Source of the DNA: Leptolyngbya sp. SIO1E4 | Lineage (GTDB): Bacteria; Cyanobacteriota; Cyanobacteriia; Phormidesmidales; Phormidesmidaceae | Length of the DNA stretch: 64,000 bases | Assembly: GCA_010672825.2 (NCBI GenBank) | Contig: JAAHFU020000005.1 | Location: 248,001 to 312,000, forward strand | Direction of reading: 5' to 3' | Shown here: positions 1-61,664 of the stretch, in pieces | How the letters are laid out: every line of letters begins with the position of its first letter | How positions within the stretch are numbered: the stretch's first letter is position 1 | The notes under the pieces: model-generated | What the model was told of the DNA's origin: nothing | What the model saw: the letters and a program-made list of their open reading frames with translations, nothing else | The model's database searches: none | Position numbers and translations under genes: made by a program

Positions 1-626
1 CTAAAGCCATTGGGGATCGAGCCGCCATCCAATTTGCTGGCCAGTTCTATCAAGCTTTAGCAGCAGGCAAGTCCTTTCTATTTGCCTACGAAGCTGCCAC
101 AGCAGGACTGGATTTATCTGGCAGTCATGAATCGACCACACCAGTTCTGTTGACCCGCAATGAAGATGAAGATCCCTTCGGGATTTTGCAAACCAAATCT
201 GAAACGTCACCAGAAATTACCCAACCCCCAATGCCTGCACCGCAGTCCCAAAGCATTGGCAACATCACCATCAGTGGCAATAGCAATGCCTTTACCAATG
301 TTCAATCTGGGGGCGACGTAAATCTTACACGGAGTCAAAACCAGGAGCAAGCAAGCAATTCTGATTTGGAAGCAGCTTTAGCGGCCATCGCAAATCTAAA
401 ACAGAACATTGCTGCCACCGAAGACCTCAACCCTATTGAGAAGGCTACGGTCGAGGTACCAATCTCTATGCTGGAGACTGAGTTACAGAAACCTCAGCCT
501 GATAAGAGTTTGATTGATCAGGCGATCGCAGCCCTCCAGAAAAGCTTAAACGGCGTGGTCACATTGGCCGAGCCGGTAGCAAAGGTTGCCACTCTTGTCG
601 CAAAAGCTTGGGGAGGATTGCCATGA
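1..626 (+). CDS. CHAT-family protease C-terminal part with shared beta motif and helical module (5'-truncated)
   Basis: The reading frame is open from base 3 to the stop at 624-626 and has no start inside the window, so the gene begins upstream. The first ~45 residues (AIGDRAAIQFAGQFYQALA, then a GKSF...AYEAA stretch and a TPVLL end) resemble the C-terminal end of CHAT caspase-like domains. A low-complexity linker follows, then the 16-residue motif GNITISGNSNAFTNVQ at 258-305, and a helical module of about 65 residues with DLNPIEKAT and DKSLIDQAIAALQKSL. The same module ends the protein at 54503-55012. The stop overlaps the next start by 4 nt (ATGA), suggesting translational coupling to the STAND ATPase. 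CHAT domains are caspase-like proteases used in bacterial conflict systems. The CHAT catalytic His/Cys lie outside the window, so activity cannot be judged. The family call rests on a short fragment. Confidence 0.7.
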   Translation, partial: KAIGDRAAIQFAGQFYQALAAGKSFLFAYEAATAGLDLSGSHESTTPVLLTRNEDEDPFGILQTKSETSPEITQPPMPAPQSQSIGNITISGNSNAFTNVQSGGDVNLTRSQNQEQASNSDLEAALAAIANLKQNIAATEDLNPIEKATVEVPISMLETELQKPQPDKSLIDQAIAALQKSLNGVVTLAEPVAKVATLVAKAWGGLP

Positions 627-3600
627 ACCCTAAAAATTTCGATGAGGTACCCCTAAGCCAACAACAATCCCTAGGAGATATCAAGATTGATGGTGATGGC
701 AACACTATCAATAATTTCCAAGCAAAGCAAATCATCGTTAATTCGAATTCTGATAAAGAAATTAGAGTCCAAGAGCAACTTGACACCAAATCTCCCTATA
801 AAGGATTGGAAGCCTTTGACCTATATGATAGAGACCGCTTTTTTGGTCGTGATCAACTTTGCAATCAATTAGTTGATGAATTGAATAAAACAAACTTAGT
901 TTTGTTATTGGGTGCATCTGGTAGTGGCAAGTCCTCAATAGCAAAAGCAGGTCTTATTCCACATTACTTAAAGAAATACAGCAACAACTTTTTTGGACTA
1001 GTATTTACGCCAGATCAAGATCCCTTTGAGGCACTCTATAGCAATCTAAGCAATCAAAAATATACTCAATCTGAATCTTCGATAGCCAAAAAGGCAAGTA
1101 AGAAGACATTATGTCAAGTAGTTGGCAAACTAAAGAAATCCAATGAATTTTGGCTTATCTTTATCGATCAATTTGAAGAGATTTTCACTACAAGCGAGCC
1201 AGAAAAACGAGATGCTTTTATTTATAGTTTAGTAGAACTTAGTGACAATTACAGGAATGATTCTAATCTCAAGATTATAGTTGCTATGCGGTCTGACTTT
1301 TTAGATCGACTCGACTCAAACCCTGCCAATCTTCTAGCTAGAGCTACTGAGGGGCATCGCCCGTTGATTACGCAGATGCATCAGGATGAACTTCGTTTAG
1401 CTATAGAGAAACCTGCGGCCCAGCATGGGGTTAAGTTTGAAGTTGGCCTAACAGAGGAAATAATCAAATCTGTACAAGGTCAAGCAGGATATTTACCGCT
1501 ATTGCAATACACGCTTGATCTGCTTTGGGTAACAGAGGGGATACAGGAGCATAATCGGACTTTACATATTAATACTTACCGTAAATTGGGTGGAGTACGC
1601 GAAGCGTTAAAGCAACGGGTAGATGAGATATATAATACCTTATCTAAACAAGGAAAGTTAGCGGCTAAACGCATTTTCCTAAAGCTCGTAGAAATTGGAG
1701 GTGATGCTGAATCAGTTACCGAGTGGCAAACTGTACGGCGAAGAGCAACTTTGTCTGAATTTACTGATGTGATCGAGAAAAAGGTCTTGGTGAAGTTGAT
1801 TAACGCTAAGCTCCTAGTGAGTGATTCTGATCTATCAAAAAAATCTAAAAGCGAAAAAACAAACCTTAAAATTTCTACAGTAGAAGTTGCTCATGAAGTT
1901 TTGCTCACTTGTTGGCCACTCCTAAATGATTGGATTAAAGAGAATCGACAAAATATTGCTCTCTATAACCGATTAAAAGAAGATGCAGCTCATTGGAAAA
2001 TCAGAAAAACTCATCCGTCAACTAAAGATAAATTTACTGATCACCCAGACAGTGAGCTTTGGAGTGGATCAAAACTTGAGAAGGCTCAAGAGCTAGAAAG
2101 AGATCCTATATTTAGGGAGGTTTTAGGGGGATTTAACGACGAGGAGAAGGAGTTCGTCGAAAATAGTTTGAATCTGCGAGAACGGCAGCGGAGAAGGACA
2201 ATTATCAGTCTGGCTGGATTTTCAGCATTTTCTTTGCTATTAGCAAGTTTTGCTGGAATTGGATGGAGACAGGCAGAAATCGGACAAATTCAGGCTTTCG
2301 TTCAATCGTCAGAAGCAAAGTTTATGTTAAATAGAGATTCTTTCAATCCTTTAATTGATGCTTTGGCGGCTGGAGAACGACTGCAACGACTGCCATTAAA
2401 AAACAATAATTCTAAGCTTCACTCTGATGTCATGAAAGCTTTGACTCAGGCAATTTTCTGGGTGCAAGAAAAGAACCAATTACAAGGCCACAGAGACTTC
2501 ATTCAGAGGGTTGCTTTTAGCTCTAACAATGAGGTTATAGCTACGGCTAGTTATGATCACACAATCAAATTATGGCAACCAAATGGAAATCAAATCACTA
2601 CACTAAATGGGCATTCAGCACCTATTCTAGATATCAGTTTTAGCTCAGATGATCAACGGATTGCTTCAGCTAGCGAAGACCATACAGTTATTATTTGGGA
2701 TCTGCAAGGTAATGCGTTACAGACCCTTGAAGGGCATCAGGACTGGGTAAATAGCGTGAACTTTAGTCCTGATGGCTCTAAACTTGTGTCTGCAAGTGAC
2801 GATATGACAATCAAGATATGGGATAGCACTGGAAATCTACTAAATACAATTCTCGCGCATAATCAACCTGTATTAGCAGTAGCTTATAGCCCCGATAATA
2901 CAATGCTAGCAACTGCTAGCTTGGATGGAACTGCTAAACTTTGGGACGCGCGGGGCAATCTTCTTAAGATTCTAGAAGGCCATAAAGATATTCTTCTAGA
3001 TTTAGAATTTAGTCCAGATAGCGAAATTCTAGCAACTGCTAGTAAGGATGGAACGATAAAACTTTGGAACCGTAAAGGAGAGCCAAACAGAACTCTTTTC
3101 GATCCTGAAGATTCCAGAAGTGATCCAGAAGGTTTCCTGGATATTACCTTCAGCCCAGATGGCAAAATAATTACAGCAGCTTCTTCAGACAATACTATCA
3201 AGGTTTGGAATTTAGAGGAGAATCTAATTTCTCGATTACAAGCTCACTCTTCTCGCATAAATAGTGTTGACTTTAGTCCAGACGGTAAGACTCTTGCTTC
3301 TGCTAGCAATGACCTGACTGCAAAGCTTTGGCAGATAGAACGCCCTCGACTCAATATTATTCCCGAGGCTGGAGAAGTTTATAGTATTGATGTTGCCCAA
3401 AATGATGAGTTTATTGCATCAACATCAATTTCTACTGATGTTGATAAGGGTAATTATGTCAAGCTTTGGGATACCCAAGGCAGCTTAATTAGAAAGTGGA
3501 AAGTAGACTCTTGGCTCTACAGTTTAGCAGTGAGTTCTACAAGGAATTTAATACTAGGTTCAGATTCTGAAGGAAGAATATGGTTGTGGGATCAAAACGG

Positions 3601-4309
3601 CAAACTTCTAAATTCAATTACTGCCCATGAGAGAGCAGTCCAAGAAGTGATCTTCAGCCAAGATGACAGCATGATTGCTACTGCTAGTGAGGATGGGACG
3701 GCAAGAATTTTCAAGCCAACTGGGGAAGTTCTGAGTCCACCAATGGAGCACACTGGAACAGTTACAAGTGTGAGCTTTAATCCTAAAAGCTCCTTGATTG
3801 CAACCGCTAGTAGCGACGGCACTATCAAATTCTGGGATCTTAATGGGACTTTAATTCAGACACTCGAAGGACATGAGAAAGGTGTTTTAATGGTGCGATT
3901 CAGCGCAAATGGCCACTTATTAGCAAGTGCTGGACAGGATCGTACAGTAAAGTTATGGAATTCTGAAGGAAAACTAGTAAAAACAATGGAAGGACATGAT
4001 GCTGCTGTAACAAGCATAGCTTTTTCAACTAGTGGTGACCTTCTAGCTAGTGGCAGTGATGATGGAACTGTAATGCTTTGGAATATTGAAGGCGAATTGC
4101 TTACGACCCTTTCGGGGCATAAGGGCGACGTGAATACAGTCACATTTTCGAGTGATAGTCTTTTTCTTATTTCTGGAGGTGCAGATAATCGAGTTCTTCT
4201 GTGGAAGATTGAGCACTTAACACTAGAAGGACTGATAAGCGAGGGATGCGAATGGCTATATGAATTTTTAATGTCACATCCTGATAGGCGAAAAGGTTTG
4301 TGTCGTTAA
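623..4309 (+). CDS. nSTAND1-type ATPase with TM helix and 14 WD40 repeats (cassette A sensor)
   Basis: I place the start at ATG 623, which follows GGGGAGG and overlaps the upstream stop; an in-frame TTG at 608 is less likely. The product has 1228 residues. Residues 18-33 (GDIKIDGDGNTINNFQ) match a motif in the upstream protein. SPYKGLEAF and DRFFGRDQL open an nSTAND1-type NTPase with Walker A GASGSGKS at 97-104, Walker B LIFIDQFEE near 178-186 and a MRSDFLDRL segment. A hydrophobic helix at about 527-549 separates the ATPase from 14 WD40 blades (about 620-1200), enough for two seven-bladed propellers. The tail contains HLTLEGLISEGCEWL. STAND ATPases act as ligand-gated switches, with WD40 domains as the usual sensor; membrane anchoring is inferred. 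Codon use is AT-rich compared with the NB-ARC gene downstream. The protein at 55009-58776 is a full-length paralogue. Confidence 0.88.
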   Translation: MNPKNFDEVPLSQQQSLGDIKIDGDGNTINNFQAKQIIVNSNSDKEIRVQEQLDTKSPYKGLEAFDLYDRDRFFGRDQLCNQLVDELNKTNLVLLLGASGSGKSSIAKAGLIPHYLKKYSNNFFGLVFTPDQDPFEALYSNLSNQKYTQSESSIAKKASKKTLCQVVGKLKKSNEFWLIFIDQFEEIFTTSEPEKRDAFIYSLVELSDNYRNDSNLKIIVAMRSDFLDRLDSNPANLLARATEGHRPLITQMHQDELRLAIEKPAAQHGVKFEVGLTEEIIKSVQGQAGYLPLLQYTLDLLWVTEGIQEHNRTLHINTYRKLGGVREALKQRVDEIYNTLSKQGKLAAKRIFLKLVEIGGDAESVTEWQTVRRRATLSEFTDVIEKKVLVKLINAKLLVSDSDLSKKSKSEKTNLKISTVEVAHEVLLTCWPLLNDWIKENRQNIALYNRLKEDAAHWKIRKTHPSTKDKFTDHPDSELWSGSKLEKAQELERDPIFREVLGGFNDEEKEFVENSLNLRERQRRRTIISLAGFSAFSLLLASFAGIGWRQAEIGQIQAFVQSSEAKFMLNRDSFNPLIDALAAGERLQRLPLKNNNSKLHSDVMKALTQAIFWVQEKNQLQGHRDFIQRVAFSSNNEVIATASYDHTIKLWQPNGNQITTLNGHSAPILDISFSSDDQRIASASEDHTVIIWDLQGNALQTLEGHQDWVNSVNFSPDGSKLVSASDDMTIKIWDSTGNLLNTILAHNQPVLAVAYSPDNTMLATASLDGTAKLWDARGNLLKILEGHKDILLDLEFSPDSEILATASKDGTIKLWNRKGEPNRTLFDPEDSRSDPEGFLDITFSPDGKIITAASSDNTIKVWNLEENLISRLQAHSSRINSVDFSPDGKTLASASNDLTAKLWQIERPRLNIIPEAGEVYSIDVAQNDEFIASTSISTDVDKGNYVKLWDTQGSLIRKWKVDSWLYSLAVSSTRNLILGSDSEGRIWLWDQNGKLLNSITAHERAVQEVIFSQDDSMIATASEDGTARIFKPTGEVLSPPMEHTGTVTSVSFNPKSSLIATASSDGTIKFWDLNGTLIQTLEGHEKGVLMVRFSANGHLLASAGQDRTVKLWNSEGKLVKTMEGHDAAVTSIAFSTSGDLLASGSDDGTVMLWNIEGELLTTLSGHKGDVNTVTFSSDSLFLISGGADNRVLLWKIEHLTLEGLISEGCEWLYEFLMSHPDRRKGLCR

Positions 4310-4351
4310 TTTAATCATTTGTAAAAGAGAAAATTATTGGAGGAGATTTTC

Positions 4352-7300
4352 ATGGATCTTAATGATAAAGCCTTCTACACTCAAAATTCAGATTTAACTG
4401 AGAAGGAAAGGATAACGCGATTAAAACGAAAGGGATTAGGATGGTTACCTGACTACCCTGAGGTTGATGATCCTAGATCTGAGAGAGGAAAATCAAAAAA
4501 TAAAAGTAAGATCAATCAATCTGAATCGACTCAGTCAATTGAAAATATAGCTACATCTTTAGAAATCTTAACCGATCATTTTATTCGCTTTACAGAATTA
4601 GTAGAAAGTAAAGAACAGACGAATGGTCAAATAGATAATTTTAGAAATACGCTTACAAATCTGAAAGCAGAAATATCTTCTGAAATCCAAGAAGATTTAA
4701 ATGTATTTAAGGTCAAGTCTTATAGAGTTTTGAAAAGAGGTTCTTCTAGTCAAGAAGTTCTGAAGGTTAAGAATGCTCTTTATTTTCTCACTAGTCGGCA
4801 GACTCCTGATAAAAATAGTTTCCAAAAATTGGCAGTTGAAAATCGGCAAATGCAAAACTCAGGTGTCAACTTGTGGATGTGGCTTACTGACAACTCTTTT
4901 GATTCTTGGACAGAACGACTAGTCATGGCCTTTCAGGAAGATTCTCATATTACAGCTGATGGAATTGTAGGACTAGAAACTTATACTGCTATCAGCTATT
5001 ATTTAAAGGGGTCAAATGGCTCATCAGAAGACCTTAGTAGTCGGATTAAAGAGCTTCCTTTATCTTCTTCTATTCCACCTAGAATGGTTTATAAAGTTCG
5101 AGAAGAGTTGATGAACTATTTAGAATCTGAAACTCATGTTTTAACTTCTAAATGGGAAGATTCAAGAGAAAATAAAGCAAAATATACTAAGCGTTTTCCT
5201 GACAACTCACACAAACAGTTCTCTGACTTTTGGACAGCTCTTGATGGCAGAAATCTCGCCAGCTTTTGCAAAATTATTTCAAATAGAGATCAAAATTATA
5301 TACCTATATATTATAAAGAATTAAAAGAAGTCACAGCTTTTTCAGCAGCAATATATAGACTTTTCCAGGCCACTCCACTAGCCCACGAAAGAGACTCATC
5401 ACACAAGTCAGTTGGTGAGGATACTTTAAATGATAAGTTGTTAGTTGATTTCATCTTCGAGATCGTTGATGACATTAAGAATTGGCATAATAAACTCAAA
5501 GAAAATAAGACGTGGGAATTCTTCTCTGATAAAGGAAATTTTATATTCCCTAACAGAGAAAATTATTTAGATGATATTAAGCTTAAAAGGAAAGAGGTGA
5601 TCGAAGGATTTCCAGAGATAGAAAAATCAATAGATTTACTGAATAAGACATCATATGCTAAAAAACTAAGTCAATTCGAAAGGGAACTATCTGATTCCAG
5701 TCCAGAAAATCTCTTGAGTGCCCTGGAAAATATATTGCAAAAATTGAGAATAGAAACTAGTGTAAAAGATCAGACAACTCTTAGAGAAATTTGCAAAAAT
5801 CGGACTCACCCTAATGAGTACAATGATTACATTGTTAGTTTCCTAGAATATTCGATTCTAGATAGATTATTTCTTGATCTACAGGAAAAGATAAACTCCT
5901 TTATTAATAATCTAGCAGCTTTACAAAGCTCGTGGTTTGACTTAAACAGAAATTCTCAAGAGCAATCTAGTCAGAGTGATGGAAACCTGTTTTTTCAATT
6001 CGAAGAAAATGGAACCTCAAAAAAAGTCACTCTAAAAGACTTTAGTGAATTAGTGGTTTTGAATCAAGGTGTTTATCGACCTGAAGAATTATTCACAGAC
6101 TTTGAAGATAAATTTAATGCTATACCAACGAGTAGTAGTTCGTTGAGAAGACAAATAGAAGAAGTTTGTAAGGCTTTTGCTACTCGAATAACAAATGCTA
6201 CCCCTCAAGAATTAGAGGAAGAAGAGGGTGTGAGGGATCCTACGCCTAATATATTTAAAATTTTGAGTAGAGGCGAGCTAGTTTTCTCACTCAACAGATT
6301 ATATCTAGATACTAGAAGGCCAAATACGCTAACAAATATCATTGAAATTCATAAGATCTCCTCTAAAAACAAAGGGGAGCTGAGTTCAATAGACCGTAAG
6401 AATTTAAATGTAATCTTACAGAATTTAAGAGAAAATGAGTTGATTTATGAAGATTTACTTTCCTTACTTTCGATTACAGCTTGGCCTCTACCTGCAGATG
6501 ACTTTGTTAACGCCTTTAATGAACTTTTTAATATTCTTGATCCTTTTATCTCGGTTTTTCTTCGAAGAATTTATCCCATAGCTCAATTCGATAATTTGAA
6601 TGCGGCTTTCGAAAAAATAAAAGAAGACCTGCGCCAACTAGCTGAACTGTCTCCTGTCCTTCGAACTCAATTGCTGTCTCAAAATGAGTTTTCTTCTGAA
6701 GATGAGTCGAAAGAAGATTTCAATATTGTTCAGAAACTTGTAGAGCTATATAAGCTACTGGGTTCCAATTCAACTATTGCTGACTTTGAAATCTTTCGTC
6801 AGGATATTTCTGAGGCATGTAAGAAAATTGAAATTGATTTAACACTACGATTAAATCAACTTTACATCGACAATCTGCTAATTCAAGAAAGGAAGATAGA
6901 TGAAGAGGAAATAATAGATGATGAATTTATTAAAAAAGTTTCATCAATTCCACGTTTTCATGTGCATGAGCTTGGCAAAGATAAAATTATTCAAATGAGG
7001 AAAATCGAAACTTTATTTAGTAAAAAAGAGATAGAAAGAAGACAACAAAAATTTAAACAAGAGAATCTACATAGAGACTTTAGCCTAAAAGCAGCCAAGA
7101 TTCGCAATTTAAGTAAAATTTGTATCATTAAATTTATTCTATCTCTAATTAAGATGTCAAAGTCACAATCTTTGATTGATGAACCTGATGAAAAAGAATT
7201 TTTATACGATGGTCAAATTTCAAATAAGGAGCAGTTAATTGAAGTTGAATATGGAAGCTCTTCTGGAGTCAGAGATTTACAAAAACCGAATGATGATTGT

Positions 7301-8209
7301 TCAGACAATAGATCTATCTTGTTTGAACCTGACAACTTCAGTCTTCCTGTTAGTAAAAGTGTTCTGCTGATTAATTCGCAAATACCTAATAACAGGGAAA
7401 AACGTTACTTCTATCTGCCCAGATATGTTGACTGGAGCTTCTGGTTTCCTGTTGTTCGTGATCAAGGTGTCTTGAATTCCTGTACGGCTTTCTCTTGTAT
7501 TTCATTGATGGAATACTATTTTCGTAAGAGGTTTGGTAAACATACATCTCTATCCCCCTTGTTTCTTTACAAAGTGTCTCGTAGTTTGATGCAGTGCGAG
7601 GGTGATACTGGAGCTTCTATTCGTGAAACCTTCAGAGCAATGGAAGCTTATGGTGTAACGCCAGAAGCCTATTGGCCCTATTTTCAGGAGGCCTATGATG
7701 AAGAACCAAGTGCGTCATGTTACATCTATGCGCAGAGCTTTCAAGTCCAAAAATATTTTCGAGTTGGTCACGCTAGTCTTTCTACAGATAACCTGCTCTT
7801 CCGTGTGAAAGCTGTTCTTGCGAGTGGTTTTCCTTGCATCTTTGGTTTCACTCTTTACAGTTCCAGTCGGGAGAACCAAAACCTTGTTAATGGATATTTC
7901 CCATTCCCTGGAGAAAGAGATAGCGTGCTGGGCGGTCATGTTGTTGTAGCCGTTGGATATGATGATGATGCGATTGTTCCGTCCCAGGATGGATATAATG
8001 ATGCCTCGAAAGGTGCTTTACTCATTCGTAACTCTTGGGGAACTGATTGGGGGCGTAATGGCTACGGTTGGCTACCTTATGACTATGTCTTGAAAGGACT
8101 GACTGCCGACTGGTGGTCTTTACTCAAGGCAGAATGGTTTGAAACAGGTCAATTCGGTGTAGAGTCAAAAGAACCTGGTACTAAGAGACGCTCTTCCCAG
8201 AGAGGCTAA
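4352..8209 (+). CDS. Giant papain-like (C1A) cysteine protease with peptidoglycan-binding-like domain (cassette A effector)
   Basis: ATG 4352 follows GGAGGAG at 4339-4345 and gives 1285 residues. Near the N-terminus is KGLGWLPDYPEVDDP, a segment often seen ahead of bacterial papain-fold domains. Next comes a peptidoglycan-binding-1-like region (LKRGSSSQEVLKVKNAL, then VMAFQEDSHITADGIVG), then about 750 residues of mostly charged helical sequence without recognised domains. The C-terminal ~240 residues form a C1A peptidase with Gln1038 (DQG), Cys1044 (NSCTAFS), His1196 (GGHVVVAVGYD) and Asn1227 (RNSWGTDWG), so the catalytic set is complete. The segment LFEPDNFSLPVS precedes the protease and is conserved in the paralogue at 58776-61664. 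No signal peptide is visible. It lies 42 nt after the STAND gene and is probably its effector. The sequence is strikingly AT-rich. The C1A call is firm; the substrate is unknown. Confidence 0.87.
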   Translation: MDLNDKAFYTQNSDLTEKERITRLKRKGLGWLPDYPEVDDPRSERGKSKNKSKINQSESTQSIENIATSLEILTDHFIRFTELVESKEQTNGQIDNFRNTLTNLKAEISSEIQEDLNVFKVKSYRVLKRGSSSQEVLKVKNALYFLTSRQTPDKNSFQKLAVENRQMQNSGVNLWMWLTDNSFDSWTERLVMAFQEDSHITADGIVGLETYTAISYYLKGSNGSSEDLSSRIKELPLSSSIPPRMVYKVREELMNYLESETHVLTSKWEDSRENKAKYTKRFPDNSHKQFSDFWTALDGRNLASFCKIISNRDQNYIPIYYKELKEVTAFSAAIYRLFQATPLAHERDSSHKSVGEDTLNDKLLVDFIFEIVDDIKNWHNKLKENKTWEFFSDKGNFIFPNRENYLDDIKLKRKEVIEGFPEIEKSIDLLNKTSYAKKLSQFERELSDSSPENLLSALENILQKLRIETSVKDQTTLREICKNRTHPNEYNDYIVSFLEYSILDRLFLDLQEKINSFINNLAALQSSWFDLNRNSQEQSSQSDGNLFFQFEENGTSKKVTLKDFSELVVLNQGVYRPEELFTDFEDKFNAIPTSSSSLRRQIEEVCKAFATRITNATPQELEEEEGVRDPTPNIFKILSRGELVFSLNRLYLDTRRPNTLTNIIEIHKISSKNKGELSSIDRKNLNVILQNLRENELIYEDLLSLLSITAWPLPADDFVNAFNELFNILDPFISVFLRRIYPIAQFDNLNAAFEKIKEDLRQLAELSPVLRTQLLSQNEFSSEDESKEDFNIVQKLVELYKLLGSNSTIADFEIFRQDISEACKKIEIDLTLRLNQLYIDNLLIQERKIDEEEIIDDEFIKKVSSIPRFHVHELGKDKIIQMRKIETLFSKKEIERRQQKFKQENLHRDFSLKAAKIRNLSKICIIKFILSLIKMSKSQSLIDEPDEKEFLYDGQISNKEQLIEVEYGSSSGVRDLQKPNDDCSDNRSILFEPDNFSLPVSKSVLLINSQIPNNREKRYFYLPRYVDWSFWFPVVRDQGVLNSCTAFSCISLMEYYFRKRFGKHTSLSPLFLYKVSRSLMQCEGDTGASIRETFRAMEAYGVTPEAYWPYFQEAYDEEPSASCYIYAQSFQVQKYFRVGHASLSTDNLLFRVKAVLASGFPCIFGFTLYSSSRENQNLVNGYFPFPGERDSVLGGHVVVAVGYDDDAIVPSQDGYNDASKGALLIRNSWGTDWGRNGYGWLPYDYVLKGLTADWWSLLKAEWFETGQFGVESKEPGTKRRSSQRG

Positions 8210-8335: not shown

Positions 8336-11300
8336 ATGGCAAGAGTCAATCTTGGCCCCCAAGCTCACAGACGCACAAGGCAGCTTTTGCATGTGCTAAT
8401 GACCTATGCCAATGATGAAATTGAAGGGTGTGAACACCTTGAGTCCTACATCAAAACCCAATGGCAGTCTTCAAAGCGCTTGGTGGTGAGTACTAAGGTT
8501 CGATATTTGGAAGAATTATCCAACCTGGGTGATGGAGGACTGCAACTGAATCGGAGTCATATCAGAGAAGCGTTGAAGCGCTTAAATGACCATGTAAAAA
8601 TTCTGGAAGACAATCGAGTGTCCTCCCAAGGATCTGACCTTTGGCACTTTACCCTGAATCTCTGGCATCCCGGCGATGAAATAGATCGCAACCTGCACCA
8701 ATTCGATACAGCTTGGGAAGCGGCTCGCCCAGCAAAATCCAAGCAAGTAGCAGAGCCGATTGTTAATGCTGATCAGAGCCTTGGCAATTCGCCTTCCCGT
8801 AAAAGTTCAATCTTAGACTGGGGAGACGCCCTGGATATTTCGGGCTTCTACGGTAGAGAACCAGAACTAAAAACGCTTCAACAATGGATTGGGGAGGATT
8901 TTTGTCGCCTGATACTCCTGCTAGGCATGGGGGGCATTGGGAAAACAGCTCTTTCAGTCAAACTGGCCCAAACCTTGCAGGGTCAGTTTGACTACGTCAT
9001 CTGGCGATCGCTCAGAAACCAACGTCCCCTTCAAGACCTGTTAGATGACTTACTACTAACGCTGTCAGAGCATCAGCTGATCGATTTACCTCAGACCATC
9101 GATAACCGCATTTTGTTATTGCTGGACTATCTACGGACATCGCGATGCTTGATTGTGCTAGATAACTACGAATCAACCCTACAGAGTGGCGAACTCTTCG
9201 GGCACTATCAGTCCGGCTATGAAGAATATGGTCATCTGCTACGTAGTCTTGGCGAAAGTAACCACCAGAGTTGTTTACTCCTAACCAGCCGTGAACAACC
9301 TACTGGGTTAACAGTCAAAGTAGGATCAAACCTTCCCATCCGTGCCTTTCATCTAACGGGCGTCGATGAGGCAACCGCCACCGCAATATCCCAGGATAAA
9401 GGCTTTGACATATCGACAGAAGCCGGACTGCAGTTGGTTAGACACTACAACGGTAATCCCCTAGCACTCAAAATTGCTGTGACGACCATTCAAGATCTGT
9501 TTGATGGTGATTTAGTCAGTTTCTTGGAAGAAGGAACGGTGGTGTTTGGGGATATCTCAGAGCTCCTCCAGCAACAGATTGGTCGACTCTCTGATTTGGA
9601 ACTGCAGCTCATGCGGTGGCTGGCGATCGCTAGAGAGTGGATTAGCCTGACCGAGCTGAAACAAAAGCTGGTGCCCGTTGCCTCTTCTAAAACTCTGATT
9701 GAAGCGCTCGACTCCTTGCAGCGGCGATCACTGATTGAAAAACGTGGTAAAGCCTTTACCCAGCAACCCGTGGTGATGGAATACCTGACAGAGCAGATCG
9801 TGAAACAAGCTGTTGAGGCCATTCTTCAAGGGCAGGTGAGTCTCTTGGATACCCTTGCTTTGTGTGAGGCCCAAGCCAAAGACTACATCCGACAGATCCA
9901 GAGCCGATTAATTTTGCAACCTGTGGCAGATTGCTTGATCCAACAACTCGGAACGGCTACTGCGCTTAAGCAGCCCATTGATCAGATTCTAGAAACCCTT
10001 AAGAATCGACCCTCTAAACAGCCTAGCTATGCTGCAGGGAACCTGATCAACCTCATGAGTCACCTCAATCTGGAGCTCAGGGGTTACGACTTTTCACATT
10101 TAGCAGTATGGCAAGTCTATTTGCAAGCATTGCGGTTACCACAGGTGAATTTCTCAGAAGCGGACCTTAGCCGCTCAGTGTTTACTCAAACCATTGGTGG
10201 CTTTTTTGCTGCAGCCTATAGTCCTGATGGACAACATCTAGCGACAGGACTTACTAACGAGATCGTGGTTTGGAATCTCAGTCAAAATCAGCAGCAGTTC
10301 ACATGTGAAGGGCATTCTGCCTGGGTAATGTGTGTAGACTATCATCCCTCCCAGCCCATATTGGCCAGCGGTAGTAACGACCAAACGATTAGACTCTGGG
10401 ATGCCATAACAGGACAAGGTTTGAAAACCTTAAAGGGACATGACAGTTGGATTCAGGCAATTCGCTTCAGTCCCAATGGACGCTGGCTTGCCAGTGGCAG
10501 CAATGATGCTGATGTCAGGCTTTGGGACATTACCAGTAGCCGATGTGAAAAAATCCTCACAGGTCATCGCGATCGAGTACTTTCTGTCCATTGGCTATCG
10601 GATAGCCAGACCCTGGTCACCAGCAGTCAGGATCAAACCGTGCGAATGTGGGATGTGCAAACAGGGAACTGTCGCCAAGCCTTCTCGATTCCAGTGAACT
10701 GGGCTTTGGCAATAGATATCAGTCCCGATCAACAGACACTGGTTACGGGGGCCGATGCTAAGGCGATTAAGTTTTGGAATTTGACCTCAGGAGACTGTTT
10801 AGGTGTGCTCCCGAACTATCAGACTCAGGTCTGGAGCGTTCAATTTAGTCCCGATGGCCGGAGTATAGCCACTGGCAGCGAAGACAAAAGCATCAAGCTT
10901 TGGGATGTAGCTACAGGAGACTGCGACAAGACGCTACTGGGGCATACCCATCGAGTGTGGTTAACAATATATAGTCCAGACGGTCATTCCCTAACCAGTG
11001 CCAGTGATGATCAGACTTTAAAGATCTGGGATGTGGAATCTGGACAGTGCCTCAAAACATTTAATTCTTACGGCAATTGGATGCAATCAGTCGCCTTTAG
11101 TCCTGATGGTCAGCACCTTGCTAGCAGTAGCGAGGACAAGCTGATTCGTCTCTGGCATCCTCAGACAGGGGAGTGTCTAAAGATACTCAAGGGGCATACT
11201 AACCTAATTGCTTCTGTAAAATTTAGCCCCAATAGCAGCTGGCTCACTAGTGCCAGTGATGATGGCACCATTCGACTTTGGGAGGTCGCTTCTGGAAGCT

Positions 11301-46775: not shown

Positions 46776-46898
46776 ATCTCGCCAATGTTTTAATTACTTA
46801 CCACTTCTATTGCTGATTTGTATATTTTCTAGCCGCCTCAGTTTTTCTTTGACAAACTGATAGGCGATTGAGGGTTGCTACTCCAGGAAAGGTTATGT

Positions 46899-50498: not shown

Positions 50499-50597
50499 TG
50501 ATGACATTTATCATGCCTTGACAATGACAATGATCAGATGCTCTCGAAAGCACTACCTCCTATAAAGACATCAAAGCTGTTATTTAGGAGGATACGC

Positions 50598-54502: not shown

Positions 54503-55012
54503 ATGCCGAAATACACTGTGGAGGAAGTGCTAGAGATCATTCAGGGTCTTAGCCCAGAAGAAAAAGCCTCTCTCAAAACCCAACTCAGCAGCCTATTAGA
54601 TGGTGCTTCCCCAGCGTCTACCGTTCAGCAATCTCGTTCGATGACGGTGGGCGGCGATTTTCAGATTGGGGGGACGGGCGTCACGGTTGATATGAGTCAG
54701 CAACAAACCGTCGGCAGCCCCTCTCCTAGCAATGCCACTGAAAAGGCTAACACCACTCAGACCTTAATTCAGGCAATTAACGCACTCCATCAACAAGTCC
54801 TGGATTCCTCAGACCTAAATCCTGTCGAAAAGGCGACGGCTGAAATTCCCCTCAAAACTGCTACGGAAGAACTGCACAAGGACGCACCTGATAAAAGCCT
54901 AATTGATCAATCTATTGCAGCCCTCCAGAAAGGCTTAGAAGGCGTAGAAACTTTGACCGAACCGGTTATGCGGGTGGCTGCTCTGGTCGCTAAAGCCTGG
55001 TTAGTTCTATGA
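54503..55012 (+). CDS. Small adaptor-like protein with shared beta motif and helical module (cassette B, gene 1)
   Basis: The 169-residue protein starts at ATG 54503 after TTTAGGAC. A short helical N-terminus (EEVLEIIQGLSPEEKASLKT) is followed by GDFQIGGTGVTVDMSQ at residues 51-66. It ends with a helical module (DLNPVEKATAEIP, DKSLIDQSIAALQKGLEGVE, VMRVAALVAKAW) almost identical in pattern to the end of the CHAT protein at 1-626. Here no protease is attached. The stop overlaps the STAND start by 4 nt (ATGA), exactly as in cassette A. The 16-residue motif recurs in the STAND protein (residues 20-35), suggesting homotypic contact. No annotated domain is recognised. Confidence 0.75.
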   Translation: MPKYTVEEVLEIIQGLSPEEKASLKTQLSSLLDGASPASTVQQSRSMTVGGDFQIGGTGVTVDMSQQQTVGSPSPSNATEKANTTQTLIQAINALHQQVLDSSDLNPVEKATAEIPLKTATEELHKDAPDKSLIDQSIAALQKGLEGVETLTEPVMRVAALVAKAWLVL

Positions 55013-58000
55013 CGCTACCTGACCCTGAATCTCACCAAAACCAAGCCCAAGATGTCTCAATTGGGGGAAACTTTCAGGTCAGTGGCGAGGGTAACACGGT
55101 CGATTTTTCTCAGACTCATCTTGATCTGTCCCAGGCGACCCTTTCTCAGACCCAAATTTTGCAGGTCGCCTTCGATGAAATCAAGACCCGCCCTCTCATT
55201 GCCCGATCGCCCTACATTGGCCTGCGTAAGTTTGAAGTGCGAGACCGGGATTTATTTTTTGGGCGCGATCGCCTCGTCAGCCGTCTTCAAAATCGCCTCC
55301 AGCAACATTTTCTATTAGTTCTGGGAGCTTCCGGGAGTGGCAAATCTTCGCTGATCCGGGCTGGCCTCATTCCAAAACTGGCTGAGCAGCAAGGGGGCGG
55401 ATTTCGGGAGTTGGTTTTCACCCCAGATCGGGATCCGTTCGAGTCGTTTCGGGCCAGCCTCATCAGTGCTGGGTATCGGCAGTCGGCCACAGAATTTCTG
55501 TTATCTGGCCAGTCCAATGGGTTAGTCCAAGCCAGTCAAACCCTTAAGCAAGTGGATGAAGAGTGGCTGATCTTTATCGATCAGTTTGAGGAACTGTTCA
55601 CCCTTTGCCATGATTTGCAGAAGCGGCAGCACTTTATTGATGGTCTGCTGCAGTTAGCCAAAGCCCAGCTGCCAACGGTAGACATGGTGCTAGCGATGCG
55701 GGCAGATTTCCTGGATCGCCTCAGCGCCTATCCAGCCCTGAGGGGGATTCTTCAGCTATCGGAACTGGTCACCGACCTAGGGGATGATGAACTCCGCCTT
55801 GTGATCGAACAACCGGCAGCCCACCATGGCGTTGTCTTTGAACCAGGACTGGTGGGGGAAATTATTCAAGATCTCAAAGGCCGCACAGAGGCTGGCGAAT
55901 CCGACCGGATCTCCCTACCCTTACTGCAATACACCCTCAAGCTGCTGTGGGAAAGTAGCGGCAACCTCGGCGATCGCATCCTTCGCACGACCACCTACCG
56001 TCACTTAGGGGGTGTCCGAGGCGCACTGCAGCGGCGGGTTGACGATATTTACAGCAGCCTTTCTGCGGAAGAACAGCAGGCTGCTAAACGGATTTTTCTG
56101 CAGTTGGTCGATACTACCAGCGCTGATGCCGGGGCCACTGCCGTCGGTAAAGCCGTCAGTCACCGTGCTGCTTTGGGGGATTTTCGCGATGCTACCGTGC
56201 AAAAGGTGTTGAAACAGCTGATTGATGCCAGTTTGCTCATCAGCGATCGCCCCAGCCCTGACAGTACTAGTGTTGTCGAACTCGCCCACGAGACCCTCAT
56301 CGATTCCTGGGACACGCTCAAAAACTGGATTGAGGAAAGCAAACCCCTGATTCGCCTGCGCAACCAGCTCAAAGAAGACGCCAGCCGCTGGCATGATCTG
56401 TGTCAGAAAAAAAACACGCAGGCCGAGGCCGAGCTGTGGCATGGCTACAAACTAGAGTGGATTATCGATAGAAAGCAAGATATTCAATCCCAGTTTGGCT
56501 CCTTTACCTCAGCAGAGATAAGTTTTATCGAAGCAAGTGAAGAACTTCGTGATCGCCAACAGCAGGCAAAGATTGAACGTGAACGTAAGCAGAAATGGTT
56601 AATAGGTGGTATCGCTATAGCCACAATGGGGGCTCTAAATTTGGCCGTTGTGTCACTTTTAATGTGGAAAGCTGCTGAAAGTCAAACTATTCAAGCGGTA
56701 TCAAAAACATCGGCTATTGCGTTTGTCCAGAATCAGGACTCCTTTGATCCAGTTATTGAAGCGCTTAGAGCTGGGACCCAACTCCAGCGTTTGCCCTTCT
56801 TTTTGCGTCCTGCCGACCTTCAAGCCGACGTCATGACATCTTTAGCCCAGAGTGTGTACTGGGTGCAGGAACGCAACCGCCTAGAAGGTCATACCGATGA
56901 TGTTGAAGAAATTGTCTTTAGCCCCAACGGTGACATCATCGCCACCGTGAGCTACGACCAAACCCTTAGGCTTTGGAGCTCAACAGGTCGATTAGTAGTT
57001 GAGCAATCCCACAATAGCCAAGTTCTGAGCGTAGATTTCAGCCAAGACGGTCAGACGCTAGCCAGTGCCGACTTTAATGGTGAGATCCGACTGTGGACAG
57101 CAACCGGAGAGCCAATCTCAGCATTTTCAGCCCATAACGATTGGATTCACAGCGTTCGGTTTAATCCTGAACTAGAGTTGCTCGCCAGTGGCAGCGAAGA
57201 TGGCACCGTCAAGCTATGGGATTTACAAGGAAAGCCGAAACGTACCATCCCGGCCCACGATCACCCCGTGCGGGACATCGATTTCCATCCAGATGGGATA
57301 ACTATTGCCACTGCCAGTGCCGATGGAACTATCAAACTTTGGGATCTCTACGGCCAGCCCAAAGGGATGCCTTTGATAGGTCATCAAGATTGGGTGCTGA
57401 GCGTTCGCTTCAGCCCTGATGGGAAATGGCTAGCCTCCAGTGATAACAGCGGGATGGTTCGTCTTTGGAAAGCCAGTGGAGAACCTGTGCGAGCGTTTTC
57501 TCCGAGCGATGACAGCTCCGTCTACCAAGTGGCATTCAGCCCAGACAGCCAATACATTGCCGGAGCCCTGGCCAATCATTCGGTTATAGTCTGGGATATC
57601 CAGGGAAATGTTGTGGAAACTCTGCTGGGGCATTCCCTGAGAGTTAACGGCGTCAGTTTCAGTCCGGATGGCAAGATTCTTGCCTCTGCTAGTCGGGATG
57701 ACACCGTTAAACTCTGGCAGATGGATAAAACGCCACAGTTGAGGGTGCTGGAACCTCCCACTGCTGCACGGGGCATTGTATTCGGTATTAGCGTTGCCCC
57801 TGATGGCAGCCAAATAGCGACGACCCGCTCAGATGGTCAGGTTGCCCTCTGGAATCTAGAGAACCCCCAAGTCCCGACCTTGAAGCTACTACCGGGGGAC
57901 AGCGCTGGGAAGAGCATCAGTTTTAGCCCAGCAGGCGATCTCTTAGCCAGTGCTCATACAGACGGAGCGATCCGAGTCTGGACAGCTGAGGGGCAGATAC

Positions 58001-58776
58001 TGAACACCATTACCGAGGCCCATCAAGAAGGGGTCAATGGCCTCAGCTTTAGCCCCCACAATAACTTATTGGCCTCTGGCGGCGGTGATGGTTTGGTCAA
58101 ACTTTGGGACGCCACTAGCAGCGACCCCCCCAAAACACTTGCAGAACACACAGCAGCCGTTAACTGGGTGAGCTTTAACCATGATGGCAGCCGCCTCGCG
58201 AGCGCCAGTGATGACGGCACAGTTAAGATATTGAATCCCACCTCAGGTGAGCAATTCGTTTCCCTAGAAGGGCATGATGGGGCCTCTGTTTGGGAGGTGG
58301 CTTTTAGTCCTAGCGGAGATGCGATCGCAACTGCTGGGGGTGAAATGGTGCAGCTTTGGGACAAGAGCGGCCAGCACCTCCAGACACTGCCTAGCAGCAG
58401 TCACAGTGTTCAATTTAGCGACGATGGTCAGCAACTTTTCAGCACAGGCGGTGACACTATCCAAGTCTGGCAGCGGGATGGAACGCTCCTCACAACTTTG
58501 GTTGGTCATACCAGCTCCATCAATGGCATGCGCTTCAGCCAGTTGCCGATCTTGGCATCTGATCCTTCAGAGGGAGGGCTGGGCAAAATCCCGACCCTAG
58601 TCTCAGGCAGTTCAGATGGCCGGGTCATTCTTTGGAATCTTGAACATCTCACCTTAGATGGGCTTGTGAGTCAAGGATGTGCTTGGCTTCAAGACTACCT
58701 CCAAACCAACCTATCTGCCCCCACTGAACTGTGTGAGGGCGGGCAAACATCACAGGAAACCACAGGAGAAAAATAA
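55009..58776 (+). CDS. nSTAND1-type ATPase with TM helix and 14 WD40 repeats (cassette B sensor)
   Basis: 1255 residues from ATG 55009. Residues 20-35 (GNFQVSGEGNTVDFSQ) carry the shared motif. nSTAND1 follows: SPYIGLRKFEVRDRDLFFGR, Walker A GASGSGKS at 106-113, Walker B LIFIDQFEE at 187-195, and AMRADFLDRL. A TM helix near 530-553 (KWLIGGIAIATMGALNLAVV) precedes 14 WD40 blades. The tail HLTLDGLVSQGCAWLQDYL matches the cassette A protein. Order, spacing and blade number are the same as in 623-4309, but GC content is clearly higher, so the two copies diverged long ago or arrived separately. Its stop overlaps the papain gene start by one base. Confidence 0.9.
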   Translation: MTLPDPESHQNQAQDVSIGGNFQVSGEGNTVDFSQTHLDLSQATLSQTQILQVAFDEIKTRPLIARSPYIGLRKFEVRDRDLFFGRDRLVSRLQNRLQQHFLLVLGASGSGKSSLIRAGLIPKLAEQQGGGFRELVFTPDRDPFESFRASLISAGYRQSATEFLLSGQSNGLVQASQTLKQVDEEWLIFIDQFEELFTLCHDLQKRQHFIDGLLQLAKAQLPTVDMVLAMRADFLDRLSAYPALRGILQLSELVTDLGDDELRLVIEQPAAHHGVVFEPGLVGEIIQDLKGRTEAGESDRISLPLLQYTLKLLWESSGNLGDRILRTTTYRHLGGVRGALQRRVDDIYSSLSAEEQQAAKRIFLQLVDTTSADAGATAVGKAVSHRAALGDFRDATVQKVLKQLIDASLLISDRPSPDSTSVVELAHETLIDSWDTLKNWIEESKPLIRLRNQLKEDASRWHDLCQKKNTQAEAELWHGYKLEWIIDRKQDIQSQFGSFTSAEISFIEASEELRDRQQQAKIERERKQKWLIGGIAIATMGALNLAVVSLLMWKAAESQTIQAVSKTSAIAFVQNQDSFDPVIEALRAGTQLQRLPFFLRPADLQADVMTSLAQSVYWVQERNRLEGHTDDVEEIVFSPNGDIIATVSYDQTLRLWSSTGRLVVEQSHNSQVLSVDFSQDGQTLASADFNGEIRLWTATGEPISAFSAHNDWIHSVRFNPELELLASGSEDGTVKLWDLQGKPKRTIPAHDHPVRDIDFHPDGITIATASADGTIKLWDLYGQPKGMPLIGHQDWVLSVRFSPDGKWLASSDNSGMVRLWKASGEPVRAFSPSDDSSVYQVAFSPDSQYIAGALANHSVIVWDIQGNVVETLLGHSLRVNGVSFSPDGKILASASRDDTVKLWQMDKTPQLRVLEPPTAARGIVFGISVAPDGSQIATTRSDGQVALWNLENPQVPTLKLLPGDSAGKSISFSPAGDLLASAHTDGAIRVWTAEGQILNTITEAHQEGVNGLSFSPHNNLLASGGGDGLVKLWDATSSDPPKTLAEHTAAVNWVSFNHDGSRLASASDDGTVKILNPTSGEQFVSLEGHDGASVWEVAFSPSGDAIATAGGEMVQLWDKSGQHLQTLPSSSHSVQFSDDGQQLFSTGGDTIQVWQRDGTLLTTLVGHTSSINGMRFSQLPILASDPSEGGLGKIPTLVSGSSDGRVILWNLEHLTLDGLVSQGCAWLQDYLQTNLSAPTELCEGGQTSQETTGEK

Positions 58777-61664
58777 TGGTGCATGCAGAAAAGGCTTGGC
58801 AAAAAAAGGGATTTGGCTGGATTCCAGATTTGCCGGATGTGACTGATCCCAACCTTGAGTCGGTCCTGGAGAACAAACCCCGCATTCACACTCAAGAGGG
58901 TATCGGGCATCTAGAAGCGATTCTTGAGCACCTAATCGATAGCCTACAACAGCAGGAAGGACTCGACACCTCCGAGCTTCAAGACATCAAAAAACAGCTA
59001 TCTGGCGAAACGTGCTTTCCCTCAGTGCAGATCTATAAGATTTTGAGAGCAGGTAGAGTCTATCAGGGCAAAGAAGTTGTTCGGCTGAAGCTAGCAATTT
59101 ATGCTATCTACAAGAAATATAAAGAAGAAGGAAATCATATCCGAGAAGACTTCATCCAATGCTGTGAAGAACAGCTCGACATCAAAACCCCTGGCTTAAA
59201 TCTTATTCAATGGATTCAAGAGCCGACATTTGACCAAAAACTAGAGAAGCTAGTTATCGCTTTTCAAGCTTCCCAGAATTTAGTTTGTGATGGTATTGTT
59301 GGCCCCAGAAGTTACGCTGCTATTCAATCTACTCTAACTGAAAATGAACAAGCTCAGCCCGAGATAGCCCTCATTTGTCCACCTTCACTCATTCCACATG
59401 AGGTTTTAAAGGAAATCTTTCAGAACTTAACTTATCTTTGGCTTGAGGGTAAATTTAAGATTCAGCTTGACAATGCTTTTCTGCAGTTTTTTGAGAATCA
59501 ACCGCTTGATCCTATATTAGCTGAGAGAATCCAGTTGATTCGACGAGAGTTAGATAACGATATTAGCGAAGTACTCTTAATTACCAGTATCAAACTCAGA
59601 GAAGACACAGATACACTTAAAGATTCTAAGAAACTGCAGGAACATCAGGGCTCATTATCTGAGTCAGAACAGTCGGACAGAAAAGAACCTAGGGAAGAAC
59701 TGCAAGAAAAGTTGGAAGCTTTCTGTGCTTCTTTGCTTCAGACAATTCAAGGGCTGACAGGATATGATCCTGATAAAACTCAGGCCGAAAAACAGGGGAA
59801 CACTGATACCATAGAATATCCCGAAAAGACGAAGAGAATTCTATCGAAACTCAATGAATCGATTAGAGATTGCTTAGACCAGCTTATGGAGAATTCAGAG
59901 GCATTGACTAACAGCTTCATTCTCTGTTCTTACGAAAGATTTATATATCAGTTTGAGTATTGGTTTCAAACTATCGAGCCTTTTATTTCAGCCATACTCC
60001 AGGCGATATCTCCTTTAGCTAATTTTGACAACCTGAAAGAGGCTGTTAATAAAGGCTTTGAACGGTTAGATAGTGGCTTCCAATTGCACCATCTAGAGAA
60101 CCGGACAAGACTCGCGCCTTATAAGACCCTTCTGAGTGAATATTCGCCCATTTATCTAACCGACCCAATCGCTGAGTTGCGATCGCTAAAGTATTCGGCC
60201 ACTAATCTTTTTGAAGAAACGCTTGTCAAAATTGAACGCGAACTTTATGGAAATATTGAAATTAGACCTATCTTTATTGATACTTTAGCTGATTTCTCAA
60301 GAGATCGAGGAGTGTTGAGTAAAAAGAATAAGGATGCCTTTTTGAAAAAGGTTGAAGAAACAGTGAGGTCGGAATTTGGTTATACTGAAGATGAATTGAA
60401 TACATTGGTAAAACCTGCTGCAATCAAGTTCTTAGAGTTTAGAACCCGCCCAGATCGAGATAAGGATGCCGGAGAGGATTTACAAAATGAGAAGAAAGAC
60501 CTTGAAGAATATCTGTCTTTCTTCCAATTTTTAAAGGATATTCTGAGCAATCAATACAACGTCAAATACACAAGGGCACAAGCTGAATCCGACAAGGTAG
60601 ACAAGCAAACAGCTGTGCTGAAGTCTTTGTTAACGGACAAAGAAGAGTTTTTTGAAATCAGTCATTCAGATCTGGATGAGCAAGCGTCTAAAGGCTCTGC
60701 TTCGTCTAGCAAAATTCAGCGGACTGAACAAGCACTGTTTTTTGAGCCTGCTAGACTACAGTTGCCTGTTAGTACAAAACTTCTGAATACTTCTCTGCAG
60801 AGAAGAAAGAAAAACATCAAGTCTTACTTCTTCTTGCCAGGAGTTGTCGATCTCAGCTATTGGTGTTCTCCAGTTGAGGATCAAGGATCGCTGAATGCCT
60901 GCACCGCGTTTGCCGGTATTGCGCTGGTAGAATATTTTGCGCGGAAGCGTTATGGGAAATATATGAATCTTTCTCCCCGCTTCCTCTATAAAGCATCTCG
61001 TAATCTGATGGGGCGCTTGGATGATACTGGTGCATCTGTCCGGCAGACTATGAAAGCTTTAGTGCTCTTTGGGGTACCGCCCGAAGAAGTTTGGCCCTGG
61101 AATGATCAGGAATTTAACGAAGAGCCCCCCGCCTTTTGCTATGCCTACGCACAAAGTTATCAAGCACTCAAGTATTTTCGATTAGATTCTGCGGCGATCG
61201 CCTCAAAGGAGCTCCTGCTGTTCCAGATTAAAGCCGTTTTAGCCGCAGGGCTGCCTTGTATGTTTGGACTTACTGTTTACGATTCTTTCTACAAAGAGAG
61301 CAATATTCGCAGGGGACATATTCCCTATCCCAGCGATAGAGATCAGATCGTTGGCGGACATGCTGCCGTGGCTATTGGCTACAGCGATTACAAGCTCATT
61401 GATCGAGTGGATGGAAAACCCACTCAACCAGGAGCCATCTTAATTCGGAATTCTTGGGGAGCCAACTGGGGCAATGGAGGATATGGCTGGTTACCCTACG
61501 AATACATTTTGCAAGGGTTAACCGCTGACTGGTGGTCACTCTTGAAGTCAGAATGGTTTGATGGGGGTGCTTTTGGACTAGGGGCCGTTGATCCTGGGGC
61601 AACCAAGAACAATGGGGGTGGTAAAGATGAAAACCATGTAACAGATCCACCCACCAGAACTTGA
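58776..61664 (+). CDS. Papain-like (C1A) cysteine protease with peptidoglycan-binding-like domain (cassette B effector)
   Basis: 962 residues from ATG 58776, with AGGAG about 10 nt upstream and a TAATG overlap with the STAND gene. Near the N-terminus is KKGFGWIPDLPDVTDP. The peptidoglycan-binding-like part is ILRAGRVYQGKEVVRLKLAI and VIAFQASQNLVCDGIVGPRS. A helical middle region, about 320 residues shorter than in the cassette A paralogue, leads to FFEPARLQLPVS and the C1A domain. Gln703, Cys709 (NACTAFAG), His862 (GGHAAVAIGY) and Asn892 (RNSWGANWG) are all present. No signal peptide is seen, so the protein starts in the cytoplasm. I infer that it is the proteolytic output of the STAND switch. 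Confidence 0.88.
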   Translation: MVHAEKAWQKKGFGWIPDLPDVTDPNLESVLENKPRIHTQEGIGHLEAILEHLIDSLQQQEGLDTSELQDIKKQLSGETCFPSVQIYKILRAGRVYQGKEVVRLKLAIYAIYKKYKEEGNHIREDFIQCCEEQLDIKTPGLNLIQWIQEPTFDQKLEKLVIAFQASQNLVCDGIVGPRSYAAIQSTLTENEQAQPEIALICPPSLIPHEVLKEIFQNLTYLWLEGKFKIQLDNAFLQFFENQPLDPILAERIQLIRRELDNDISEVLLITSIKLREDTDTLKDSKKLQEHQGSLSESEQSDRKEPREELQEKLEAFCASLLQTIQGLTGYDPDKTQAEKQGNTDTIEYPEKTKRILSKLNESIRDCLDQLMENSEALTNSFILCSYERFIYQFEYWFQTIEPFISAILQAISPLANFDNLKEAVNKGFERLDSGFQLHHLENRTRLAPYKTLLSEYSPIYLTDPIAELRSLKYSATNLFEETLVKIERELYGNIEIRPIFIDTLADFSRDRGVLSKKNKDAFLKKVEETVRSEFGYTEDELNTLVKPAAIKFLEFRTRPDRDKDAGEDLQNEKKDLEEYLSFFQFLKDILSNQYNVKYTRAQAESDKVDKQTAVLKSLLTDKEEFFEISHSDLDEQASKGSASSSKIQRTEQALFFEPARLQLPVSTKLLNTSLQRRKKNIKSYFFLPGVVDLSYWCSPVEDQGSLNACTAFAGIALVEYFARKRYGKYMNLSPRFLYKASRNLMGRLDDTGASVRQTMKALVLFGVPPEEVWPWNDQEFNEEPPAFCYAYAQSYQALKYFRLDSAAIASKELLLFQIKAVLAAGLPCMFGLTVYDSFYKESNIRRGHIPYPSDRDQIVGGHAAVAIGYSDYKLIDRVDGKPTQPGAILIRNSWGANWGNGGYGWLPYEYILQGLTADWWSLLKSEWFDGGAFGLGAVDPGATKNNGGGKDENHVTDPPTRT

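Follow-up and report, generated by a model that had tools for sequence, protein, structure and literature searches.

In fungal NWD2/HET-S and in the RHIM necrosome, the motif of an NLR or a kinase seeds the matching motif of an effector. In antiviral STAND proteins (Avs, bacterial NACHTs), the effector is usually fused to the sensor. In bacterial amyloid signaling, described in filamentous bacteria including cyanobacteria, the N terminus of an NLR and an adjacent effector, sometimes a CHAT protein, carry paired motifs (PMC7889193). In the EAD systems of multicellular bacteria, caspase, trypsin, and TIR effectors are recruited homotypically to a STAND core (PMC8195603).

Here, we describe two cassettes, A and B, in the window, a stretch of 64,000 nucleotides (positions 248001 to 312000 of its contig) from the 8.2-Mb genome of Leptolyngbya sp. 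SIO1E4. In each cassette, a STAND sensor and the protein encoded just upstream carry a matching short motif, which is the most informative feature of these loci and which the preliminary description of the window had missed.

Two cassettes with the same gene order

Both cassettes encode, in this order, a module protein, an nSTAND1-WD40 protein, and a papain-family protease (Table 1). The frame at the window edge (3 to 626) is completed by upstream sequence to a 341-residue ORF (L007:5601-6626), which starts ∼400 bases before the window. The upstream sequence, once fetched, bore out the earlier proposal that a CHAT domain precedes the module in cassette A: PF12770 matches at 38.0 bits (curated Pfam cutoff, 24), and the catalytic pair, H71 (VHFSGHGG) and C114 (LNACYS), is present and conserved across the CHAT-headed relatives. 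The sensors of the two cassettes score 355 and 357 bits with the nSTAND1 model of Pfam (cutoff, 27) and have the Walker A sequence GASGSGKS. The start codon of each STAND gene overlaps the stop codon of the preceding gene as ATGA (623 to 626 and 55009 to 55012). Because this overlap is found in both cassettes, the STAND A gene more likely starts at 623 than at the mechanically called 608.

Table 1 Features of cassettes A and B, in window coordinates
Feature	Position	Strand	Evidence
Cassette A effector: CHAT end, linker, motif, helical module (last 207 of 341 aa)	1..626	+	ORF 3-626
Shared motif, cassette A effector, QSQSIGNITISGNSNAFTNVQSGGDVNL	243..326	+	Match to STAND A N terminus
Helical module, cassette A (predicted four-helix bundle)	363..623	+	59% identity to cassette B module
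Cassette A sensor: motif, nSTAND1 NTPase, WD40 repeats	623..4309	+	nSTAND1 E=9e-106, WD40 E=2e-135
Matching motif, STAND A N terminus, QQQSLGDIKIDGDGNTINNFQ	659..721	+	Alignment to effector motif
Cassette A papain-family (C1) protease with PG_binding_1 domain	4337..8209	+	Peptidase_C1 E=4e-14
Cassette B adaptor/effector, 169 aa: 33-residue helical hairpin, motif, helical module	54503..55012	+
Cassette B head: hairpin type 1, MPKYTVEEVLEIIQGLSPEEKASLKTQLSSLLDG	54503..54604	+	Alignment of 10 relatives
Shared motif, cassette B adaptor, SMTVGGDFQIGGTGVTVDMSQQQTV	54638..54712	+	Match to STAND B N terminus
Helical module, cassette B: four helices, mostly pLDDT 75-85	54749..55009	+	AF2
Cassette B sensor: motif, nSTAND1, WD40	55009..58776	+	nSTAND1 E=2e-106
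Matching motif, STAND B N terminus, QAQDVSIGGNFQVSGEGNTVDFSQ	55042..55113	+	Alignment to adaptor motif
Cassette B papain-family (C1) protease (C709, H862, N892)	58776..61664	+	Peptidase_C1 E=3e-8

A short motif matches within loci and differs between them

The motif comprises 21 to 28 residues, is rich in Gly, Asn, Gln, and Val, and lies before the module in the partner protein and at the extreme N terminus in the STAND protein. In cassette A, QSQSIGNITISGNSNAFTNVQS of the effector pairs with QQQSLGDIKIDGDGNTINNFQA of the sensor (SW 60, shuffle z 6.8); in cassette B, MTVGGDFQIGGTGVTVDMSQ of the adaptor pairs with VSIGGNFQVSGEGNTVDFSQ (SW 77, shuffle z 9.9). The same correspondence recurs among relatives: motif flavors match within a locus and differ between loci. 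Over 27 loci, the mean local alignment score was 66.5 for cognate versus 40.9 for noncognate pairs (p=5e-5, i.e., no better shuffle in 20,000, also when shuffling was confined to head types). With 16 dereplicated loci, the scores were 64.8 for cognate versus 39.6 for mismatched pairs (p=5e-5; p=3.5e-4 within head type). Against letter-shuffled STAND N termini, z was ≥4.8 in 24 of the 27 loci; matching was weak in two, L076 and L078 (z 2.1 to 2.4). It crosses STAND classes, being found with nSTAND1, NACHT, and NB-ARC proteins. The motif is conserved between variable linkers; in the CHAT group, it holds 3.42 bits per column, compared to 2.42 for the linker before it. There are about five flavors overall, and since these are partly clade-bound, the independent matches are fewer than the loci. 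A conservative estimate from five flavors would put the chance of full matching at ∼1/120.

Comparison with the published BASS3, Methanothrix, and sigma peptides (PMC8086366) gave no convincing similarity (best z 2.7, p 0.02 among 21 comparisons; BASS3 peptide alone, at most z 2.6, p 0.016); filing these motifs under a specific BASS family is therefore unjustified.

Two further cassettes, found with PADLOC model PDLC04449 and by inspecting the host genome's eight nSTAND1 genes, bring the total of this genome to four (A, B, L088, and L158), each with a matched motif of its own. L088 encodes a 150-residue module protein followed by a NACHT protein (motifs MQLGQAGRD and VQLAQAGRD), and L158 a 139-residue module protein followed by an nSTAND1-WD40 protein (motifs VTGSAIVTGDNNTV and ATGNAIISGDGNTV). 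Each cognate pair scores highest in its row and column of the four-cassette matrix, for which the permutation floor is 1/24. A module protein is encoded directly upstream of all three motif-bearing nSTAND1 proteins, and at least one motif-less nSTAND1 protein carries a fused caspase-like domain instead. The use of a different tag in each cassette suggests that prion-like matching lets a sensor switch on only its own partner. The contig of L158, which also holds L092 (G000:C9, 38.6 kb), has genes that by eye are relaxase-like and MobC-like, and the fourth cassette may therefore be on a plasmid.

Distribution of the module and its linkage to STAND genes

A single-sequence search found the module in 27 of 390 cyanobacterial genomes. 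A profile search returned 31 core hits (E<1e-19), separated by a clear gap from distant relatives at 1e-9 to 1e-4. Among 29 evaluable core loci (L077 and L086 run into contig ends), 26 have a STAND gene directly downstream on the same strand, most with an overlap of 3 to 21 bp. In the other three, the STAND gene is 216 bp upstream (L074), 2.4 kb downstream (L072), or 3.5 kb upstream (L075). The pair is spread over several cyanobacterial families, with partners of the nSTAND1, NACHT (L085 and L082), and NB-ARC (L081) classes. Every core locus with an intact motif has the ∼90-residue module C-terminal to it.

The preliminary description took the module for a fixed adaptor of STAND loci. The linkage holds for the core family; among the distant relatives, by contrast, the majority are single chromosomal pentapeptide-repeat proteins with no neighboring STAND gene. 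The module is indeed constant, but it is probably not the part that meets the STAND protein: a search with the module profile recovers neither STAND A nor STAND B in this genome, and since the STANDs of the set lack the module, except for one fusion (L082), the contact is probably not made by the module. What both partners carry is the motif.

At loci L089, L090, L091, L122 to L129, and L133 to L137, the genes encode mostly pentapeptide-repeat proteins that end in a related motif and helical module, some with long Ala/Gly/Val-rich stretches, with no STAND next door. In L069 (1 to 5791) and L070 (7206 to 15867), two motif-bearing STANDs follow one CHAT-motif-module protein, as if two sensors shared one effector. 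L011, from an Acidimicrobiales MAG, was set aside as a module locus; it has no ORF resembling a module protein.

The helical module and its heads

The likeness of the two module proteins of the window, noted earlier for their ends, is far above chance (43% identity over 134 residues, E=6e-29, BLASTP). The match is about twice as long as the ∼65 residues first reported because it includes the motif region; the modules alone are ∼59% identical. An AF2 model of the cassette B protein (single chain, four-sequence alignment) has short helices at residues 6 to 12 and 18 to 33, and four helices spanning residues 75 to 168; in this monomer, residues 33 to 81, motif included, are predicted to be disordered (pLDDT <50). 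The head of this protein, previously described as a 35-residue helix, is thus short and helical as stated but is a 33-residue pair of helices. Attempts to assign the module to a known fold failed: the best E value was 0.09 for the profile against PDB sequences, and Foldseek with the AF2 model gave nothing at E≤0.001 (best E, 0.54). A PHROGs comparison yielded no convincing match. PADLOC HMMs PDLC04449 and PDLC04451 match the motif and module of both window proteins (E values of 2.9e-7 to 1.7e-4) and also match L088 (8e-9) and L089. The PDC-M14B HMM gives E=2.9e-7 with the CHAT protein and 1.6e-5 with P0002, covering only positions ∼152 to 257 of 267; a text search for PDC-M14 found no description of it among the papers covered.

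A profile-based listing of module partners, as proposed in the preliminary description, gave the following heads in the core family: CHAT, hairpin type 1 (MPKYTVxxVLEII, plus a MFKLTVEQILASIEALS subtype, from an alignment of 10 relatives), and hairpin type 2 (MSQVEMVLNMLRPVVASMS). Once, in L082, a NACHT domain stands behind the module, and this module-motif-NACHT protein adjoins a CHAT-motif-module protein. Minimal relatives consist of motif and bundle only (L158, 139 residues; L130 and L131, 129 residues). The tree of 24 modules contains at least four head changes (three being the minimum), and heads cluster on it far beyond shuffled labels, mostly tracking clades. The earlier idea of domain swapping is thus right in that heads vary, but with at least four changes in 24 loci, mostly following clades, swapping is only occasional; exchange of heads between modules does occur, but rarely. 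The hairpin head was considered as a second recruiting tag and rejected, as it occurs in a single copy in the genome.

The papain-family protease accompanies WD40 sensors

The papain-family proteases of cassettes A and B are 36% identical and retain Cys, His, and Asn (DQGxLNxCTAF, GGHxxVAxGY, IRNSWG). Among the module loci, such proteases are confined to these cassettes and their B-type relatives: the gene follows the STAND gene in A, B, and seven B-type relatives (L059 and L061 to L066), and for L060, where the contig ends, a different contig of that genome (L148) carries a matching protease, preceded by the end of an nSTAND1-WD40 protein. Relatives elsewhere (L141 to L147) adjoin WD40-repeat proteins with a TIR-like N terminus, checked with Pfam in L141, L142, and L145 (TIR_2 is listed for L141) and judged by N-terminal sequence only in L143, L144, L146, and L147. 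Since these relatives stand beside TIR-WD40 proteins, we conclude that the protease is associated with WD40 sensors rather than with the adaptor, both where the primary effector is fused to the sensor (TIR) and where it is a separate protein (motif). The two protease outputs once ascribed to cassette A are present as genes, with catalytic residues in both, but the papain-like one goes with the sensor. It is a lineage-limited second protease beside some WD40 sensors. An AF2 model of the protein (two-sequence alignment) had a mean pLDDT of 32 and was set aside.

Genomic surroundings

The region upstream of cassette A is a defense-island setting. Outside the window on this side, a Schlafen AlbA_2-TPR gene is followed by one for a reverse transcriptase (PADLOC RT-Protease_XI, E ∼1e-129; L007:713-3120). 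The CHAT gene is closely preceded by a gene for a LuxR-type regulator (L007:4641-5261, ∼1.36 to 0.74 kb before window base 1). In L077 and L080, genes with a similar C terminus likewise precede the CHAT genes, which suggests that the regulator is linked to CHAT cassettes.

Cassette A adjoins a gene for a WD40 protein that begins MAR.NyGPQ..qRTkrLL..LL.YAN (window 8336 to 12043). Neighbors with the same start recur at the CHAT cassettes L069 (7910 to 11626) and L070 (1254 to 4982), where they are on the opposite strand. Between the two cassettes, window positions 46875 to 51038 encode a WD40 protein with a STAND-like NTPase segment (46875 to 50498), followed by a 166-residue protein. The latter has two hydrophobic stretches and is possibly a SLATT-like membrane effector, a candidate at this stage.

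Discussion

Genes, domains, catalytic residues, start/stop overlaps, and the sharing, conservation, and within-locus matching of the motif were observed directly. The reading that we favor, and hold to be probable though well short of certain, is that each cassette is a split sensor-effector unit in which the motif templates signaling from STAND to effector. The STAND-WD40 protein would sense something through its WD40 repeats and oligomerize through nSTAND1. Once clustered, its N-terminal motifs would act as a template for the motif of the partner, a seed that would be short, homotypic, and either cross-beta (amyloid-like) or beta-solenoid in nature; a cross-beta contact is what we infer. The partner, a CHAT caspase-like protease in cassette A and a hairpin/helical-bundle protein in cassette B, would in this way be gathered and activated, CHAT presumably by proximity or clustering. 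Differences in motif flavor would insulate the four cassettes of this genome from one another. The helical bundle could be a regulator or a membrane-active output, and the outcome might be cell death or defense.

Could the helical module itself be a homotypic adaptor of the EAD kind that docks effectors on the STAND protein, with the motif merely a linker? The module is constant and its heads vary, EADs are small, mostly alpha-helical domains that couple effectors to STANDs (PMC8195603), and L082 has the module fused to NACHT beside a CHAT-motif-module protein. However, docking of the EAD kind requires that both partners have the domain in common, and here only the motif is on both: the module profile misses STANDs A and B, and no STAND of the set but L082 has a module. 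We therefore consider such docking unlikely. Another possibility, doubtful but deserving attention, makes the bundle a toxic output, membrane-active like Bell or HeLo and switched by the motif seed, with the heads as additions or regulators. The last module helix is hydrophobic (KD19 of 1.33 to 1.37 in A and B; in L088, it reaches 1.56), the small helical bundle of Bell also includes a hydrophobic helix (PMC7889193), and in the minimal relatives, the bundle is the sole part left to act because only it and the motif remain. Yet all KD19 values are under the usual transmembrane threshold of 1.6, the PDB fold match is insignificant, and most of the distant carriers of the bundle are STAND-less pentapeptide-repeat proteins, which does not point to a toxin.

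The motif might also have no part in signaling and be a beta-rich structural spacer that was duplicated and is kept alike within loci by gene conversion or shared descent. Both copies lie near the gene junction, repeats rich in Gly, Asn, and Ser are prone to drift and conversion, and heads, along with motif flavors, are partly clade-specific. We give this only a small chance: the copies belong to unrelated proteins and are ∼330 to 420 bases apart, a conserved module lies in between, matching persists within head types and across the three STAND classes, and conservation is higher in the motif than in the preceding linker. Most improbable to us is that these are ordinary operon neighbors, with CHAT and papain as independent defense-island proteases and the likeness of the cassettes a product of one old duplication. 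The reverse transcriptase and Schlafen/AlbA-TPR genes upstream, the further WD40 sensors inside the window, and the papain relatives beside TIR-WD40 proteins without an adaptor would fit such neighbors, but the adaptor-STAND pair is kept in 26 of 29 loci from several families, with overlapping start and stop codons and matched motifs.

A broader form of motif-templated signaling, which we put forward tentatively and as somewhat less than probable, is a cyanobacterial family of motif-coded STANDs. Several mutually exclusive beta motifs would serve as address labels, with several insulated channels per cell. Each would join one or more STANDs (of the nSTAND1, NACHT, or NB-ARC class) to a partner in which the motif is internal, flanked by an exchangeable head, either CHAT or hairpin, and by a conserved C-terminal bundle. 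The motifs would be new amyloid-signaling families, and the bundle, a widespread PDC-M14B-like module, would be a domain new to output or control. If motif-templated signaling is right, one genome offers four natural sensor-effector pairs that differ in the matching motif, and the specificity of bacterial prion-like signaling becomes directly testable by exchanging ∼25 residues. It would also bring CHAT proteases, STAND sensors, and an undescribed helical module into one activation scheme.

Comparison with known systems

The cassettes are closest to the BASS/Bell-NLR pairs (Dyrka 2020, reviewed in PMC7889193), with which they share adjacent or overlapping genes, a motif at the STAND N terminus, and a matching effector motif. 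BASS motifs are 20 to 40 residues long and fall into several unrelated families; BASS occurs in filamentous cyanobacteria, and CHAT and TIR are known there as less frequent effectors. Unlike in BASS/Bell, where the motif is at the effector C terminus, the motif here is internal and is followed by the ∼90-residue four-helix module. The head is CHAT or a 33-residue hairpin rather than Bell, and the bundle is C-terminal to the motif, whereas the Bell bundle is N-terminal and has a transmembrane helix. With PDC-M14B, a PADLOC phage defense candidate, the likeness is in the last ∼100 positions, and the first ∼150 (the head) differ; the C-terminal four-helix bundle appears to be related to this candidate.

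EAD systems follow the same logic of recruiting variable effectors to a STAND. They differ in that the shared element here is a short motif, not a globular domain, and the helical module is on one partner only. The likeness to NWD2/HET-S and RHIM lies in the principle of motif seeding, and the effector here is a protease or helical bundle instead of a HeLo domain or kinase. Like the antiviral STANDs (Avs, bacterial NACHTs), the sensors have a STAND core with C-terminal sensor repeats; unlike in those proteins, the effector here is split off and linked to the sensor by the motif.
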